64,000 nt of DNA from contig CALGAW010000043.1 of assembly GCA_937959115.1 (NCBI GenBank), forward strand, positions 37,165 through 101,164, read 5' to 3'. This document shows positions 3,005 through 9,192 of this stretch, in pieces (within the stretch, counting starts at the first letter, position 1; every line of letters begins with the position of its first letter). The notes under the pieces are model-generated. The model was not told where the DNA came from, made no database searches, and was given only the letters and a program-made list of their open reading frames with translations. Position numbers and translations under genes: made by a program. This DNA is from an uncultured Saprospiraceae bacterium (GTDB lineage Bacteria; Bacteroidota; Bacteroidia; Chitinophagales; Saprospiraceae).

Positions 3005-3325
3005 ATGGAAAACGTGATCCAAATGTGGTTTAACTCACTTGAAACTGCCTTTGACGGAGAAAAAGTAAATGCTGATTCTGTGTTCCATTTCAAAATTTCA
3101 GGGGAAGAAGGTGGTGAGTATACGGTTACCATCAAAGACAAGCAGTTGAGGGTCCGTACTGGCTTGCATCAAGAGCCCAAATGTGAAATATCCGCCTCTG
3201 ATATAAATTTCAAGAACATCCTACTGAAAATCTCAAATCCAGGGATTGCACTTGCAAATGGAAAACTTCAGATTACTAATGTGGCAGAAGTCTTGAAATT
3301 TGCAAAACCGCTAGGACTTTTGTAG
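3005..3325 (+). CDS. SCP2-like sterol/lipid-binding protein
   Basis: A 106-residue single-domain protein that looks like the sterol carrier protein 2 fold: an N-terminal helix (MWFNSLETAF), beta strands with FKISGEEGGEYTVTIKDKQ, and the typical late segment with ALANGKLQITN followed by a C-terminal helix. Such domains bind hydrophobic ligands such as fatty acyl chains. It begins on the base after the lipase stop codon, so it is translationally coupled and may hand substrate to, or accept product from, that enzyme (inference). No signal peptide. Confidence 0.75.
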   Translation: MENVIQMWFNSLETAFDGEKVNADSVFHFKISGEEGGEYTVTIKDKQLRVRTGLHQEPKCEISASDINFKNILLKISNPGIALANGKLQITNVAEVLKFAKPLGLL

Positions 3326-3445
3326 CCTTAATAAATCTCAAATATCAAGTTGATTAACTAAAAAAGTACCTGCCTTTTACAACAGATACTTTAATTACTA
3401 ACAAACAAACAAATTTGGAGTTTGAGAACAACTCCTTTCTAACTA

Positions 3446-4834
3446 TTACTGAATACTTATTCTTTTTGAAGTCATAAAATCCTCTTTCATTACTGAGATC
3501 TGATAGATTCCCGCAGGTAATTGATTCGGCGTAAATGACATTTGAAATTCAGTTGATGTTTTCTCGAATGTCGAATTGAAAACTGTACGTCCAAGAGCAT
3601 CTGTCATTTCTAACTGGAAAGTACCTGTGATATCGTGATCCATCACTATGGAAACTGCTTCATTAGAGGCAACTGGATTAGGAAATACGGACATTCGGGT
3701 GGTTTTCTCTACAACTTCATCCGTTACATCAGTAGACACTTGGAATTCCATGATCATCTGTGTTGCATCAACAATACCGCCGTAATGTCCCGCCCAGTAT
3801 TCAAAATCATATCCACCATGTTCCACATTTACTTTAGCAAGACCAGGACCATAGTTTTCAAATGTATGACCAAGTTGTTGCCACTGATCGGTTCCAGTAA
3901 TGACTCCAGAAGTATATGAATCTAATACATTTCCATTGTTGTCTAGCAGTTCAATTGTCATTTCGTGTGTATCACCGAACCCAGTTCCTGAACCACTGCC
4001 ATCAAAACCGAGAAAGAATTCCCAAACAGTAATTTTAGGCTCAGTGTTTAATTCAGCAGCAGTGTAGCCAAGATCTAAAAGATTTACAGTTTGGTTCTTA
4101 GTACACGTATTAAAAGAGGTCTGAAATCCTGTCACTGCCGTGTGATTGGCTTTCCAACCATCGCCACCATTCTCTGTAACGGTCCAACCAGCAAGATCTT
4201 TAGTTCTGTTTGAAGCATAAAGGAAATGGTTGCCTACTACTAGACATGCGGCATCCATTATAACACCAACAGTGCTGGTCTGATCAAACTCAGCATCTAC
4301 ACCGTTTCTAAGGATTGTGATTTTACGTAACCCTGCACCATAATTGACAAAAGAATGCGTATTCATTTTCCAGTTTGTGCCATCAGTCGTAACCCATCCG
4401 TTATCTACATACGAATTGTATTCAGCAATTACATTGTCATTTACATCAAGTAATTTAACCTCATACTCATAAAGGTCAAGTGGATCTGGTCCAGCTCCCT
4501 TTATAAAGTCTGAATACCGAACGATTGGTGCTTCATCAAGCTTGGCCGCTGTATAACCTGCAGCAATCAAGTCGATTTCCTGTGTAATTTGTGTTCTGTA
4601 ACCTGCTTGGATGGCTCCTGTACCGTCATACCCCCCAGTAGGTAGGTGTAAGTGGCCTGTTCCTTGGTCAAAGACGATTGTCCAATCAGTAAGCGTGTCA
4701 TTAATTCCTGGATTTGTCAACAGATTCACGTATTGTACTTGAGCAGTCATAGTATTTGAAACAAAAGCAATCATAGCGACCAATCCTAGGGTCATTAAGT
4801 AGTTTGATAAAGAGTAAACGTTTGAATTTTTCAT
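3446..4834 (-). CDS. Secreted protein with two tandem FBA-like domains and a T9SS sorting domain
   Basis: An exported 462-residue protein. Residues 1-31 form a signal peptide ending TAQ. Residues about 37-200 and 203-365 are two copies of a domain whose second copy follows the F-box-associated (FBA) domain of Fbs1/FBXO2 closely: GGDGWK, then SFNTCTKNQTVNLLDLGY, EPKITVWEF, TIELLDNNGNVLDSY, HTFENYGPG and EHGGYDFEYWAGHYGG. In Fbs1 the aligned Tyr-Trp pair contacts the chitobiose of N-glycans; it is kept here at 346-347 but absent from copy one. Residues about 380-462 are a T9SS type A sorting domain (SVFPNP ... LPAGIYQISV). Expected to be secreted or surface-attached and possibly glycan-binding. 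It stands alone on its strand. The FBA call is from recognition of conserved positions and needs a profile search. Confidence 0.75.
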   Translation of the reverse strand: MKNSNVYSLSNYLMTLGLVAMIAFVSNTMTAQVQYVNLLTNPGINDTLTDWTIVFDQGTGHLHLPTGGYDGTGAIQAGYRTQITQEIDLIAAGYTAAKLDEAPIVRYSDFIKGAGPDPLDLYEYEVKLLDVNDNVIAEYNSYVDNGWVTTDGTNWKMNTHSFVNYGAGLRKITILRNGVDAEFDQTSTVGVIMDAACLVVGNHFLYASNRTKDLAGWTVTENGGDGWKANHTAVTGFQTSFNTCTKNQTVNLLDLGYTAAELNTEPKITVWEFFLGFDGSGSGTGFGDTHEMTIELLDNNGNVLDSYTSGVITGTDQWQQLGHTFENYGPGLAKVNVEHGGYDFEYWAGHYGGIVDATQMIMEFQVSTDVTDEVVEKTTRMSVFPNPVASNEAVSIVMDHDITGTFQLEMTDALGRTVFNSTFEKTSTEFQMSFTPNQLPAGIYQISVMKEDFMTSKRISIQ

Positions 4835-5104
4835 TTTCTAAAATTTGTATTAATTAATAAATTGGTTTTAAAGTTTTAGAGCTTGCATATTGATATACCC
4901 ATCCCATGTATCGCAAAAACAAATGCGAATACGCAATATTATTTAATTACAAGGCATAAGATTGACCAGATACGCAGTGTGTTAAAAATGTATTTTGTTG
5001 TTGTTGTTGAAATGGTAACTGTAAATAATGTTACCGAATAGATTGATTTGCAATAAGAATTGCAGTTATCCGTTGATTGTACCGCTAATTTACAATATTT
5101 ATTT

Positions 5105-6217
5105 TTATTCTAATATAATTACATCATCTTTTGTCAATATAATTCCAGTAGTTTTCACCTTAGATCCTCCATTAAAAGGGTCCTGAGCAACGATCTTTCT
5201 GTATTTAAGTTTCTGATTTCCAATGGCAGTAGGCTTTATGGTTTCAGCTATTCTAGACGCTCTCCTCCTATTTCCTATGGTTAGAGGCTCTAGCTCTGGA
5301 GCAGGTGCGCCAGTAATTTCATAAACAAGGGTGTATAATTCTCCTGAGACGATTGTTCCTTCTGGATTTAAAGACGTCCAGGTTACTGTTATCTCATCCT
5401 TTACTGAATGGTCGATATTTGATAGATTAAACCCAGGCATTGCTGGGGATGACCAATCCCAATACATGTACTCCTTTATGTTTTCTAATTTATGAGTGAT
5501 ACGCAATGCCATCACAGTGACTGGTTCATCAATTACTACCGGTACTTTGGAAGTCATACGCATCGTCTCGTTATTATCAAAGATCATCATTTCCTCATAG
5601 ACCGTCTCGTTACTGCATGGATTATCGATTACTTCAGACGATTTGTTTTCTATATCAAAATAAACATAATCATAGCAAGTTCCATTTGAAGCCTCTAGTC
5701 TAATATTAAACTTGTCAAGCGTAGTTGGCGTAAATGTATAATCCTTGCTAGTACTAACAAGTGTTTTTTCGTCTAAGATCCACTTGTATGAATTAGCATT
5801 TGTAGTATTATTAACGAATGTGACGCTTTGTCCAATACACATATCAACATTAGGCGCAATAACGACTACGTTGATTGGGCAATCTTGTATGGAAATGTTT
5901 CTAGCAATCGTATAATTTCTTGGATTGTTTACCGCAGTAATTTTTATTGAAATTGAATTCATGCTGAATTCAATGCCATGCATATCAAAGTCATAGCTAC
6001 CATCATTAGGAGTTGAAAGCTCAATAATATTGGTAAACCCGTTGTTCAGGTATTCAATTTTGACAAATTCTACGTCTGATCCAGGTGTCCAGGTAATTGG
6101 AAGGATCGATTTTTCTGAAATCGTCTGTGAACTTAAAGGACTCGTGATCTGAAGTTGTGCAAAGCCAGATGTTAGAATCAATAGTAAACAAAGAGTGAAC
6201 AGATTTCGTAATTGCAT
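5105..6217 (-). CDS. Secreted protein with Kre9/KNH-like and PKD-like domains
   Basis: The ATG at 6217 is preferred because it is followed at once by a signal peptide (MQLRNLFTLCLLLILTSGFAQ); an upstream in-frame start at 6274 would bury it. After cleavage, residues about 20-110 resemble the Ser-Thr-rich Kre9/KNH domain (ITSP..SQTI, ILPITWTPG, PNDGSYDF). A PKD-like segment follows (APNVDMCIGQSVTF ... SYKWILDEK ... YTFTP), then an unassigned beta-rich region. There is no T9SS tail, so it may be periplasmic or outer-membrane associated by other means. No enzymatic motif is visible. Function unknown. Confidence 0.7.
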   Translation of the reverse strand: MQLRNLFTLCLLLILTSGFAQLQITSPLSSQTISEKSILPITWTPGSDVEFVKIEYLNNGFTNIIELSTPNDGSYDFDMHGIEFSMNSISIKITAVNNPRNYTIARNISIQDCPINVVVIAPNVDMCIGQSVTFVNNTTNANSYKWILDEKTLVSTSKDYTFTPTTLDKFNIRLEASNGTCYDYVYFDIENKSSEVIDNPCSNETVYEEMMIFDNNETMRMTSKVPVVIDEPVTVMALRITHKLENIKEYMYWDWSSPAMPGFNLSNIDHSVKDEITVTWTSLNPEGTIVSGELYTLVYEITGAPAPELEPLTIGNRRRASRIAETIKPTAIGNQKLKYRKIVAQDPFNGGSKVKTTGIILTKDDVIILE

Positions 6218-6385
6218 GTGTTGGTTTTTCAATATAATACCTAATATATGAATATTTATTTTAATGTCAAACATAAAGCAAGTTTGTTTTTAGTAATTTA
6301 GTAAAATACGCAGAGGCACTTGTTTAGGACCTGTCTTCCACAAGACGTAATGAATGCCTCTGCGACTAACAATCAGTAATAGGAG

Positions 6386-7516
6386 TTATTTAATGTTACT
6401 TTTTGTAATCGAGTAAAGCATTCTTGACTGAGACTTATTATCAGAATAGTTCACTTTTTTAGTGTGCAAATCTAATTGGATTTTTTGCCAAGTATTTTTT
6501 GCAACATCCTTAGCATTTAGATAAACTGACCATTGATCTCTGTGGGTTTCAATAAATACTTTTCCGTTATTATCCTTATTGTATTCTTTCCATTCTTGAA
6601 TACCTGTTTGTTGGAAGATACCACCTTTGTATTCTACTTTACTTACCTTTACCGAAGGAAGAATTTTATAAATCACTCTTGAATTCTTGTTTTTAAAATC
6701 AGAATACTTCACTTCTTTTGTATGAAGATCTAGTTGAATTCTAGCCCAACCATTGTTGCCCAAGTCATTTGCTTGCAGGTAAATGGACCATTCGTCTCTA
6801 GCCGTTTCCTTGTAAACACGACCATTGTTGTCCTTGTTGTACTCTCTCCATTCCTGTACACCTGTTCGGATAAATTTTCCACCACTGTATGCAACATAGT
6901 CAACCTCAATAGTCGGGGTTATTTTATAAAGTACGCTTGGTTTTGTAAGGTTATTATCTGAATATTTCACTTCTTTAGTGTGAAGGTCTAATTGAATCCT
7001 TTGCCAGCTTTTAGGCGTTGAGGTTGCTGTTTGCAAATAGATAGACCATTCATCGCGGTGTGTCTCTTTAAATTTCTTGCCGTTGTTTTCTTTATTGTAC
7101 TCTTTCCATTCTTCTACTCCAGTTCGGATAAATTTTCCACCCTTATAGGCTACGTAGTCTATGTCTATTGTAGAGGTGATTTTATACAGTACACTTGGTT
7201 TAATCAAGTTGTTATCTGTATACTTCACTTCTTTTGTAAAAAGATCTAGCTGTATTCTTTGCCAGCTATTTGAAGTTGATGTAGCTGTTTGCAAATAAAC
7301 TGACCACTCGTCACGGTGTGTTTCTCTAAATTTTTTACCGTTGTTTTCTCTGTTGTATTCTTTCCACTCATTTGCGCTTGTTTGGACAAATTTTCCACCG
7401 CGATAAGCGACATAATCTGTTTCAATTTCTTGTGCACTTGCTAAATTTGTCTGTGTTCCTAAAGAAATGATAATTAAGAATAATAAGCTGATAAATTGGT
7501 TAATTGAATTTCTCAT
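6386..7516 (-). CDS. Secreted protein of four 86-residue tandem repeats
   Basis: A signal peptide (ending NLASAQ at about 29) is followed by four repeats at about 32-114, 118-200, 204-285 and 289-371 with an exact 86-residue period. Each repeat contains YVAYxGGKF, a WKEYNKENNGK-type segment, ETHRDEWSIYL, and WQRIQLDLHTKEVKYSD ending in LYKI. Repeats one and two are closest; repeat four is most diverged. The W-x-E-Y and RDxWSxYL cores suggest a small beta fold used in binding, but I cannot name the family. No catalytic residues, no membrane segment and no T9SS sorting domain are apparent. It is flanked by another secreted protein on the same strand. Confidence 0.8.
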   Translation of the reverse strand: MRNSINQFISLLFLIIISLGTQTNLASAQEIETDYVAYRGGKFVQTSANEWKEYNRENNGKKFRETHRDEWSVYLQTATSTSNSWQRIQLDLFTKEVKYTDNNLIKPSVLYKITSTIDIDYVAYKGGKFIRTGVEEWKEYNKENNGKKFKETHRDEWSIYLQTATSTPKSWQRIQLDLHTKEVKYSDNNLTKPSVLYKITPTIEVDYVAYSGGKFIRTGVQEWREYNKDNNGRVYKETARDEWSIYLQANDLGNNGWARIQLDLHTKEVKYSDFKNKNSRVIYKILPSVKVSKVEYKGGIFQQTGIQEWKEYNKDNNGKVFIETHRDQWSVYLNAKDVAKNTWQKIQLDLHTKKVNYSDNKSQSRMLYSITKSNIK

Positions 7517-7746
7517 TGTTTTAATTTTTAGTTGTTTTTAAATAATTTGTTTCATTAATGTTATTAACTTCTGACAACACAAAAGTAAGTCAGGACGGAA
7601 GGTTGAGAAACCAAAAAAAAATAGAATAATATATTTAATTTAATATACATTTAGGAAATTTACACTAATAATTCATTGATTATTAGGTATATTTAAAATT
7701 TTCAAGTGGTTAATTTGGATATAAAGTATATAGTACATACCTTGCA

Positions 7747-9192
7747 ATGGTGAAAAAAAGTAAATTTATTAAATTATTGAAGTCATTATCTCTAGAAGAA
7801 GTAAAGAGATTTAATGATTTTCTATGTTCTCCTTATCATAACAAAAACAAGAAAAGTGTTGCATTAATGGAGATTATCCTTCCATTTGCCCCAGAATTCA
7901 CTGATCCCAAACTAGAGAACGTTGGACTTCTAGATTCAATCTATACCAATAAGAATTCGATTAAAACATTGCTCCAAACGATGATTAGACTCTTTGAGGA
8001 GTTTCTAATTGTAGAAGGATTACGAAGTCAGGAACTTTATAAAAAGTATATCCTAATGAAGGAATTGCGAAAACGGAAATCCTTTAATCAATTCAATTCC
8101 GTTTATAAGCAAATGAAAGACAACTTTGAGCGAAAGCCTCAAAAAGATTTACTTGATTTTAATCACAGATATTTGTTGGCTGCAGAATACTTTCAATATC
8201 TATTTTTAAATAAAGAACTAACTTCCGAAGATTATAATCGATTATGGTATTTTATGGATCAATCATATGTCTTAAGTAGATTGAAGTATACTGGCAGCAT
8301 GTTAAATAAGCAGCGAATAAAATCGGGATCTATGGACGTTCCATCTGCTGACACTATGCTAAAGCTGGCTGATGAGAAACGACTCTCAGTTAATCCGCTG
8401 GTTAATATTTATAAAACAGCCTATCTGTTAATCCTACATAATGAGGATTCTTATTTCCATAAGTTTCAGGAAACCATGCGTAAAAATCATAATTGTCTAA
8501 CAAAAGAAGCTGCTACTGAACTTTATGCTGTTGCAATTAACTTTTGTATTCGCAAACATGTGGAAGGAAAATCGGGATATTATAATCAGATTTTTCAAAT
8601 TTATAAGTTCTGTCTTGAAGAACGAATTTTCTATGTGAATGGAATGATTTCACCGCAAAGGCTTCATAATTTGGTGGTAATTGGAAGCTATACAAACAAT
8701 TTTGAATGGGTAGAAAATTTTTTAGAGCAGAACAAATCTAGTATTGAAACGGAATTTCGGGAATTTGCATATCATTATTGTAAAGGTGTGTTAAACTATA
8801 ACCAAGGCAAATTATCAGAGGCTAGTGATGCCCTATTAGAGGCTAGTTTTGAAGGTACTCCAAAAAATATGGCAAAATATACTTTTATGAAACTGTATAA
8901 TATTAGTATTCAAATTCTACTTCTAAAAATTTATTTTGAACAAGTTGAAGTTTTTGCTTTTGATAGTTTGATCAAATCATTTTCAGAACGAATTCGACTG
9001 TTAAAGGATATTAATCAGAAAGAAAAAAATGGGCATCAGAATTTTATATCGATCATCAAACAACTATTCCGTTTTAAAACTGATCCAAATTATAAAAAAT
9101 CATTAGAATCAATAGAAACAACGCTAAACGAATATTCAATTACAAGTAATAAAAAATGGCTCCTATCTAAAATTAAGGAATTAGGCAAGTAA
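7747..9192 (+). CDS. Large helical protein of unknown function
   Basis: A 481-residue protein, rich in Leu, Lys, Phe and Tyr and predicted to be almost entirely helical, with no signal peptide or membrane segment. The N-terminus (KLLKSLSLEEVKRFNDFLCS, then PYHNKNKK) is the most family-like part; the C-terminal half (SEASDALLEASFEGTPKN) looks TPR/SEL1-like but no clear repeat can be phased. It is convergent with the downstream START-fold gene. A TACCTTG element lies only a few bases before the ATG, so the promoter may be very close to the start codon. I do not recognise a function. Confidence 0.7.
   Translation: MVKKSKFIKLLKSLSLEEVKRFNDFLCSPYHNKNKKSVALMEIILPFAPEFTDPKLENVGLLDSIYTNKNSIKTLLQTMIRLFEEFLIVEGLRSQELYKKYILMKELRKRKSFNQFNSVYKQMKDNFERKPQKDLLDFNHRYLLAAEYFQYLFLNKELTSEDYNRLWYFMDQSYVLSRLKYTGSMLNKQRIKSGSMDVPSADTMLKLADEKRLSVNPLVNIYKTAYLLILHNEDSYFHKFQETMRKNHNCLTKEAATELYAVAINFCIRKHVEGKSGYYNQIFQIYKFCLEERIFYVNGMISPQRLHNLVVIGSYTNNFEWVENFLEQNKSSIETEFREFAYHYCKGVLNYNQGKLSEASDALLEASFEGTPKNMAKYTFMKLYNISIQILLLKIYFEQVEVFAFDSLIKSFSERIRLLKDINQKEKNGHQNFISIIKQLFRFKTDPNYKKSLESIETTLNEYSITSNKKWLLSKIKELGK

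Follow-up and report, generated by a model that had tools for sequence, protein, structure and literature searches.

The window analysed here is a stretch of 64,000 nucleotides from the genome of an uncultured Saprospiraceae bacterium (GCA_937959115.1, contig CALGAW010000043.1). The gene under study, read on the minus strand at positions 3446–4834, encodes a protein of 462 amino acids with two tandem F-box-associated (FBA) domains and a C-terminal sorting domain of the type IX secretion system (T9SS). The open reading frame (ORF) call, the PF04300 and PF18962 profiles and tandem relatives all support this assignment; the plus strand read in this frame over 3446–4834 is full of stops. All parts of the protein are encoded on the minus strand. 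A putative signal peptide (residues 1–31, 4742–4834), with a hydrophobic helix at residues 9–29 that also appears in the structure model and is followed by TAQ, precedes FBA copy 1 (residues 35–201, 4232–4732), FBA copy 2 (residues 201–364, 3743–4234) and the type A sorting domain Por_Secre_tail (residues 383–460, 3455–3688). Eukaryotic contamination was considered and rejected, as the contig is 101 kb long, the surrounding genes are bacterial, the reading is intronless and relatives recur in other bacterial metagenome-assembled genomes (MAGs).

A Pfam search assigns the whole protein to PF04300 with an E-value of 1.3e-37 and 129.7 bits over two stretches. In a whole-genome scan each copy clears the curated cut-off of 32.4 bits separately (83.8 and 44.8 bits), confirming a PF04300 member of an unexpected kind, doubled, devoid of an F-box and with predicted export. 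The protein is not an F-box lectin, that is, a member of the Fbs subfamily of Skp1-cullin-F-box (SCF) ligases, because no N-terminal F-box is found in the Pfam listing (no F-box family at E-values up to 10). Some F-box proteins of animals use the FBA domain to detect glycans on defective proteins. The sugar-binding domains of Fbs1/FBXO2 and Fbs2/FBXO6 (PDB 2e31, 1umi, 8zuh) are among the closest known systems, from which the window protein differs in its missing F-box, its two copies and its predicted T9SS export. A sequence search of the PDB ranks FBXO2 best (6.6e-21 for the loop mutant 5b4n, 1.5e-20 for 1umi), followed by FBXO6 (1.8e-14) and FBXO44 (1.2e-13). The predicted fold is an Fbs1-like beta-sandwich; structure matches ranking below the Fbs proteins are tailspike-type, CBM61 and CBM16 domains, the latter two at 9–19% identity and apparently weaker than Fbs, and the Pfam listing of the protein contains no CBM family. 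An earlier note, made from the sequence alone, had proposed two tandem FBA domains and an exported product. The profile search and the predicted fold both agree with the first of these, so that the outcome named there as refuting, a missing FBA profile hit with an unlike fold, did not arise, and every motif it quoted is present (GGDGW at 223–227, KNQTVNLLDLGY, HTFENYGPG and EHGGYDFEYWAGHYGG).

The export signal of that proposal is likewise borne out by two profiles over their cut-offs, PF18962 (E-value 3.6e-08, 34 bits, cut-off 27) and TIGR04183 (31 bits, cut-off 23). A profile search aimed at SprA alone found this translocon in the window's genome (SprA_N, 6.4e-158) and in all nine carrier genomes tested, and the window's genome holds at least 150 T9SS-tail matches. 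Export to the surface is therefore predicted from the combination of tandem FBA and type IX sorting domain, with a putative signal peptide and probable attachment at the surface.

In Fbs1 the contacts to the unit of two N-acetylglucosamine residues (GlcNAc-GlcNAc) are made by Phe177, Tyr279 and Trp280 (PMC4603797). Domain alignment places F241 (4112–4114) and Y346-W347 (3794–3799) of copy 2 at these positions, all three aromatic, and Y79, F183 and D184 of copy 1 (F183-D184 at 4283–4288), where Asp stands for Trp. The Tyr-Trp pair thus lies exactly at 346–347, where it had been reported, and the loss from copy 1 holds for the Trp; the third contact residue, F241, had been absent from that report. 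The residue following the platform in copy 2 is A348, where Fbs1 has Lys281.

Residue states were counted in an alignment of 182 domain hits from the collected proteins and loci. Among domains not gapped at this position, every F-box/animal one (70; 72 hits with 2 gaps), every copy 2 of the window's clade (14) and every unclear one (11; 12 hits with 1 gap) keeps the platform Trp, and so do 65 of 68 on the prokaryote side (72 hits with 4 gaps). Copy 1 of the window's clade is the exception: of 12 hits, one is gapped, ten carry Asp and one Asn, and none has Trp. The tandem proteins L012 and P0051 keep Trp in both copies, so the asymmetry between copies is real and confined to one clade. L012 (genome G708), from the same family of bacteria, resembles the window protein in its two FBA domains and T9SS tail and differs at this residue. 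Ranked by conservation among 163 columns (61 prokaryote-side rows covering 80% of columns or more), the Trp position is 17th, the Phe position 28th and the Tyr position 119th, the last being often Phe, Asn, Gly or Ser on the prokaryote side. Copy 1 of the clade mostly carries an acidic Asp-Ala-Glu-aromatic-Asp stretch in place of the aromatic platform of the other copies, in the window protein DAEFD at residues 180–184 (4283–4297, minus strand); perhaps it forms a new ligand or metal site.

The explanation preferred here, to which we give a probability of roughly 0.55, is an exported tandem FBA protein in which copy 2 is likely a lectin and copy 1 is altered. Copy 2 would act at the cell surface, its F241/Y346/W347 platform stacking on a sugar face, and copy 1, with Asp in place of the platform Trp, would probably have turned into a spacer or have taken another ligand. 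If copy 2 does bind sugar, it would stack on a GlcNAc-like unit and presumably lack the mannose recognition of Fbs1. As ligand, an exposed extracellular glycan, of GlcNAc type or another, seems more likely than specifically a high-mannose N-glycan, because the segment that carries the mannose-touching loop in Fbs1 has here about half that length and the b5-b6 loop also differs. The b2-b3 segment of copy 2, between W227 and F241, has 13 residues, against a median of 16 on the prokaryote side (10–23, n=65) and of 28 in F-box/animal rows (21–34, n=64), whose length it does not reach; the b5-b6 segment is Gly-rich and has 24 residues, against 18 in 68 of 68 F-box/animal rows. With the Ala at the Lys281 place, both loops set copy 2 apart from Fbs1. 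Mouse Fbs1 is reported to contact mannose through Asn159, the corresponding human residue being Ser (PMC5457524). This loop-based argument is suggestive only, owing to results obtained with Fbs1 itself: replacing b2-b3 alone, or giving Fbs1 the b9-b10 loop of FBG3, affected RNase B binding little or not at all (PMC4603797), and more fetuin was captured once the human Ser had been replaced by Ala or Gly (PMC5457524). Other changes did matter, since replacement of b5-b6 weakened binding, replacement of b2-b3 and b5-b6 together weakened it dramatically (PMC4603797), and two of the three human changes Asp154, Asp212 and Lys280 to Ala harmed it (PMC5457524).

Several points weigh against a sugar-binding copy 2. 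FBG3/FBXO44 (PDB 3wso), which shares PF04300 and the Tyr-Trp-Ala of the b9-b10 loop with copy 2, has Tyr, Tyr, Trp and Ala at the places discussed and shows no detected sugar binding, which is ascribed to differences in four loops (PMC4603797). The two loops whose joint change was so harmful in Fbs1 are the same two that are short and long, respectively, in copy 2, and the best PDB sequence match is, by a small margin, an Fbs1 loop mutant. The loci read have no glycan-handling neighbour in common, and the conservation of Trp could be structural. In a possible though rather doubtful alternative, the FBA fold serves as a beta-sandwich spacer or protein-binding surface domain, as in FBG3, for which a role in ubiquitinating BRCA1, a protein without glycans, is reported (PMC4603797). 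The weakly conserved Tyr position on the prokaryote side and the loss of Trp from copy 1 fit a non-lectin module. Such a module accounts less well for a Trp column, corresponding to the b9-b10 loop, that ranks so high among prokaryote-side rows, for a Trp retained throughout copy 2 of the clade although the sister copy lost it, and for the tailspike-type, CBM61 and CBM16 domains as best structure matches behind the Fbs proteins.

An unlikely further possibility is a high-mannose N-glycan adhesin, binding eukaryotic N-glycoproteins for attachment or feeding. The complete F/Y/W triad of copy 2 agrees with it, as does the tolerance of Fbs1 for the FBG3 b9-b10 loop, with Tyr-Trp-Ala as here, or for a replaced b2-b3 (PMC4603797). 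The halved b2-b3 and lengthened b5-b6 relative to F-box rows do not. Carrier genomes often encode the C-terminal domain of PNGase F (PF09113, 8 of 9, the window's genome being the exception) and GH92 (PF07971, 5 of 9), yet non-carriers do so nearly as often (10 of 15 and 6 of 15), and a profile search of the window's genome finds neither. The earlier note had taken the Tyr-Trp pair as the mark of an N-glycan site, and this part of it finds no support in that form, given FBG3/FBXO44, which has the aromatics but no detected sugar binding, the loops and genome context just described and the Tyr, poorly conserved on the prokaryote side where Trp is conserved. N-glycan or chitin degradation was also tried as a genome context for the protein and shows no clear association: PF09113 and GH92 lean slightly to carriers, GH18 is no more frequent in them (4 of 9 versus 7 of 15; two matches in the window's genome), and the comparison is a small one, of nine carriers and 15 hand-picked non-carriers.

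PF04300 is rare in whole genomes of the samples scanned, which overlap with each other. Matches over the cut-off occur, the window's own genome included, in 3 of 60 genomes of relatives, 6 of 298 of the family and 4 of 395 of the class, and in the samples of the order (1 of 298) and phylum (1 of 395) only in the window's own genome. A further match in the phylum sample (G293, E-value 8.5e-4) was rejected, as it lies under the cut-off, contains one internal stop and runs opposite a 634-aa ORF that has no Pfam match. Apart from the window protein itself, the close relatives number ten: nine tandem proteins ending in a T9SS tail, and a fragment. Two profile searches returned 40 and 115 proteins, overlapping in part. 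The domain is thereby found well beyond F-box proteins, in bacterial MAGs and one archaeal MAG; the named prokaryotic carriers are all MAGs and most other rows lack a stated organism. Named loci derive from Saprospiraceae (L008–L010), a Bacteroidales MAG (L011) and Flavobacterium sp. MedPE-SWcel (L013, with FN3 and T9SS matches under the cut-off). L012 is a MAG whose title says no more than bacterium; its protein is met again in L014, from a genome of the family to which the window belongs, and the FBA gene product of G002, from the window's genus, is the same protein as that of L008. FBA proteins also occur in a Candidatus Methanospirareceae MAG (P0068, archaeal) and a Deltaproteobacteria MAG (P0122). 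Single-FBA exported proteins such as L011, P0068 and P0014 share with the window protein PF04300, the missing F-box, a putative N-terminal hydrophobic segment and a mostly kept Trp, and differ in having one copy, other C-terminal ends and often Asn, Gly or Ser at the Tyr279 position. PEP-CTERM-like ends are present in P0014, there under the PEP-CTERM cut-off, and in others, and L027 combines MAM, GEVED, FBA and T9SS domains.

Trees were built from 147 of the 182 hits, those with at least 85% of columns, thinned to 108 at 72% identity for F-box/animal rows and 82% for other rows. In the 108-row tree the 39 F-box/animal rows and four unlabelled ones (P0100, P0043, P0088, P0130) fall on one side with a Shimodaira-Hasegawa-like approximate likelihood ratio test (SH-aLRT) value of 98. 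A careful 89-row tree retaining 20 of the 39 separates 24 rows, the four unlabelled included, from 65, the window's clade among the latter (99/94, 98% of 200 bootstrap trees), and a tree of all 39 with 11 rows of copy 2 plus a selection of 10 others keeps the 39 on one side (100/99, 100% of 200). The window's copies therefore do not fall within the F-box proteins sampled. The trees are unrooted, the midpoint falls between the F-box side and the other side, and every named member of the F-box side in both profile searches is animal. Constraining copy 2 of the clade to group with the F-box side produced a tree that scored 5.2 log units above the free search (approximately unbiased test, p-AU 0.568), and constraining both copies in this way one that scored 1.7 log units below it (p-AU 0.458). 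Neither is rejected, so the trees are compatible with more than one choice of the prokaryotic FBAs nearest to the F-box side. Recent uptake from an animal F-box gene with later addition of a T9SS tail, already disfavoured and very improbable, could appeal to the first description of FBA from F-box proteins, its patchiness within the family and the non-rejected copy 2 constraint, but is opposed by the separation of the F-box/animal rows, by the many unrelated exported FBAs and by a GC content (0.396) like that of the surroundings (0.31–0.42). Copy 2 shares 30% identity with copy 1, 36% with the best F-box row and 41% with the best prokaryote-side row outside its own clade. On a possible origin of the two copies from one duplication, grouping the clade's copies 1 and 2 gives p-AU 0.508, grouping all copy 1 rows, with L012 and P0051, gives 0.13, and all copy 2 rows already fall on one side, unsupported (40/88).

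A prokaryotic origin of FBA is favoured, but not proved, by its breadth of occurrence among prokaryotes and by mean identity, which is 46% among 35 F-box rows and only 38% among the 69 unlabelled ones. On the proposed scheme the domain would belong to a wider exported prokaryotic family, and its F-box/animal side would have become the part of SCF ubiquitin ligases that reads the substrate. A tentative extension, with odds somewhat under even, is that FBA started out in bacteria and archaea as an exported module for glycan binding, that an early animal captured one copy and fused it to an F-box, and that the Saprospiraceae protein retains the original exported state, though duplicated and blind at one site. 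If true, a cell-surface lectin became a cytosolic sensor sending misfolded glycoproteins to the proteasome. P0100, an FBA protein without an F-box, forms its own branch at the base of the F-box side and is a possible intermediate; its N-terminus reads as FN3-like and has no Pfam match. A survey assigns PF04300 to Arabidopsis too and tabulates zero bacterial FBA proteins while also demanding an F-box (PMC3719486); the sequence searches returned no named plant FBA rows. Among the papers covered, with subscription papers mostly outside, literature searches on FBA as a lectin or in prokaryotes, whether bacteria or archaea, found no prokaryotic FBA study, and FBA is treated there as part of F-box proteins. 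The exported prokaryotic side, absent from this literature, is the most interesting part and reaches past the window: it supplies many natural variants for asking which residues build the chitobiose pocket, offers possible new lectin reagents and makes the origin of sugar-reading ubiquitin ligases testable.

Further observations concern other FBA proteins. P0111, P0116, P0118 and P0121 join Kunitz/BPTI, FBA and a T9SS tail, thus two domains usually considered animal in an apparently bacterial exported protein. P0055, P0056, P0064, the archaeal P0068 and similar proteins have a hydrophobic segment at the C-terminus that may be a sortase-type anchor. With regard to mobile elements, the single-FBA protein L011 matches 0 of 72,556 plasmid and 0 of 50,697 phage records.

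Around the gene, the window has no Rfam match. A terminator-like stem of 12 pairs with a T-run lies past the gene end (3363–3392, minus strand), identified by a consensus scan only, which over 3300–7800 yields 5 such sites versus 2.2 expected. In L011 and L012, GH43 genes are situated about 7–8 kb away from the FBA gene. A PKD-like exported protein is encoded upstream at 5105–6274, again on the minus strand; in L008, too, the FBA gene is preceded by a homolog of it (35% identity). Further upstream and likewise on the minus strand, 6386–7516 encodes a protein of four repeats (ETHRDEWSVYL...RIQLDLHTKEVKY) with no Pfam family over the cut-off. It has matches in 5 of 5 tandem-FBA genomes tested and in none of four further genomes (G530, which has one FBA match, and G001, G003 and G004), and its gene adjoins the FBA gene in G708/L012, lies two genes off in the window and is on other contigs in G002, G005 and G602.
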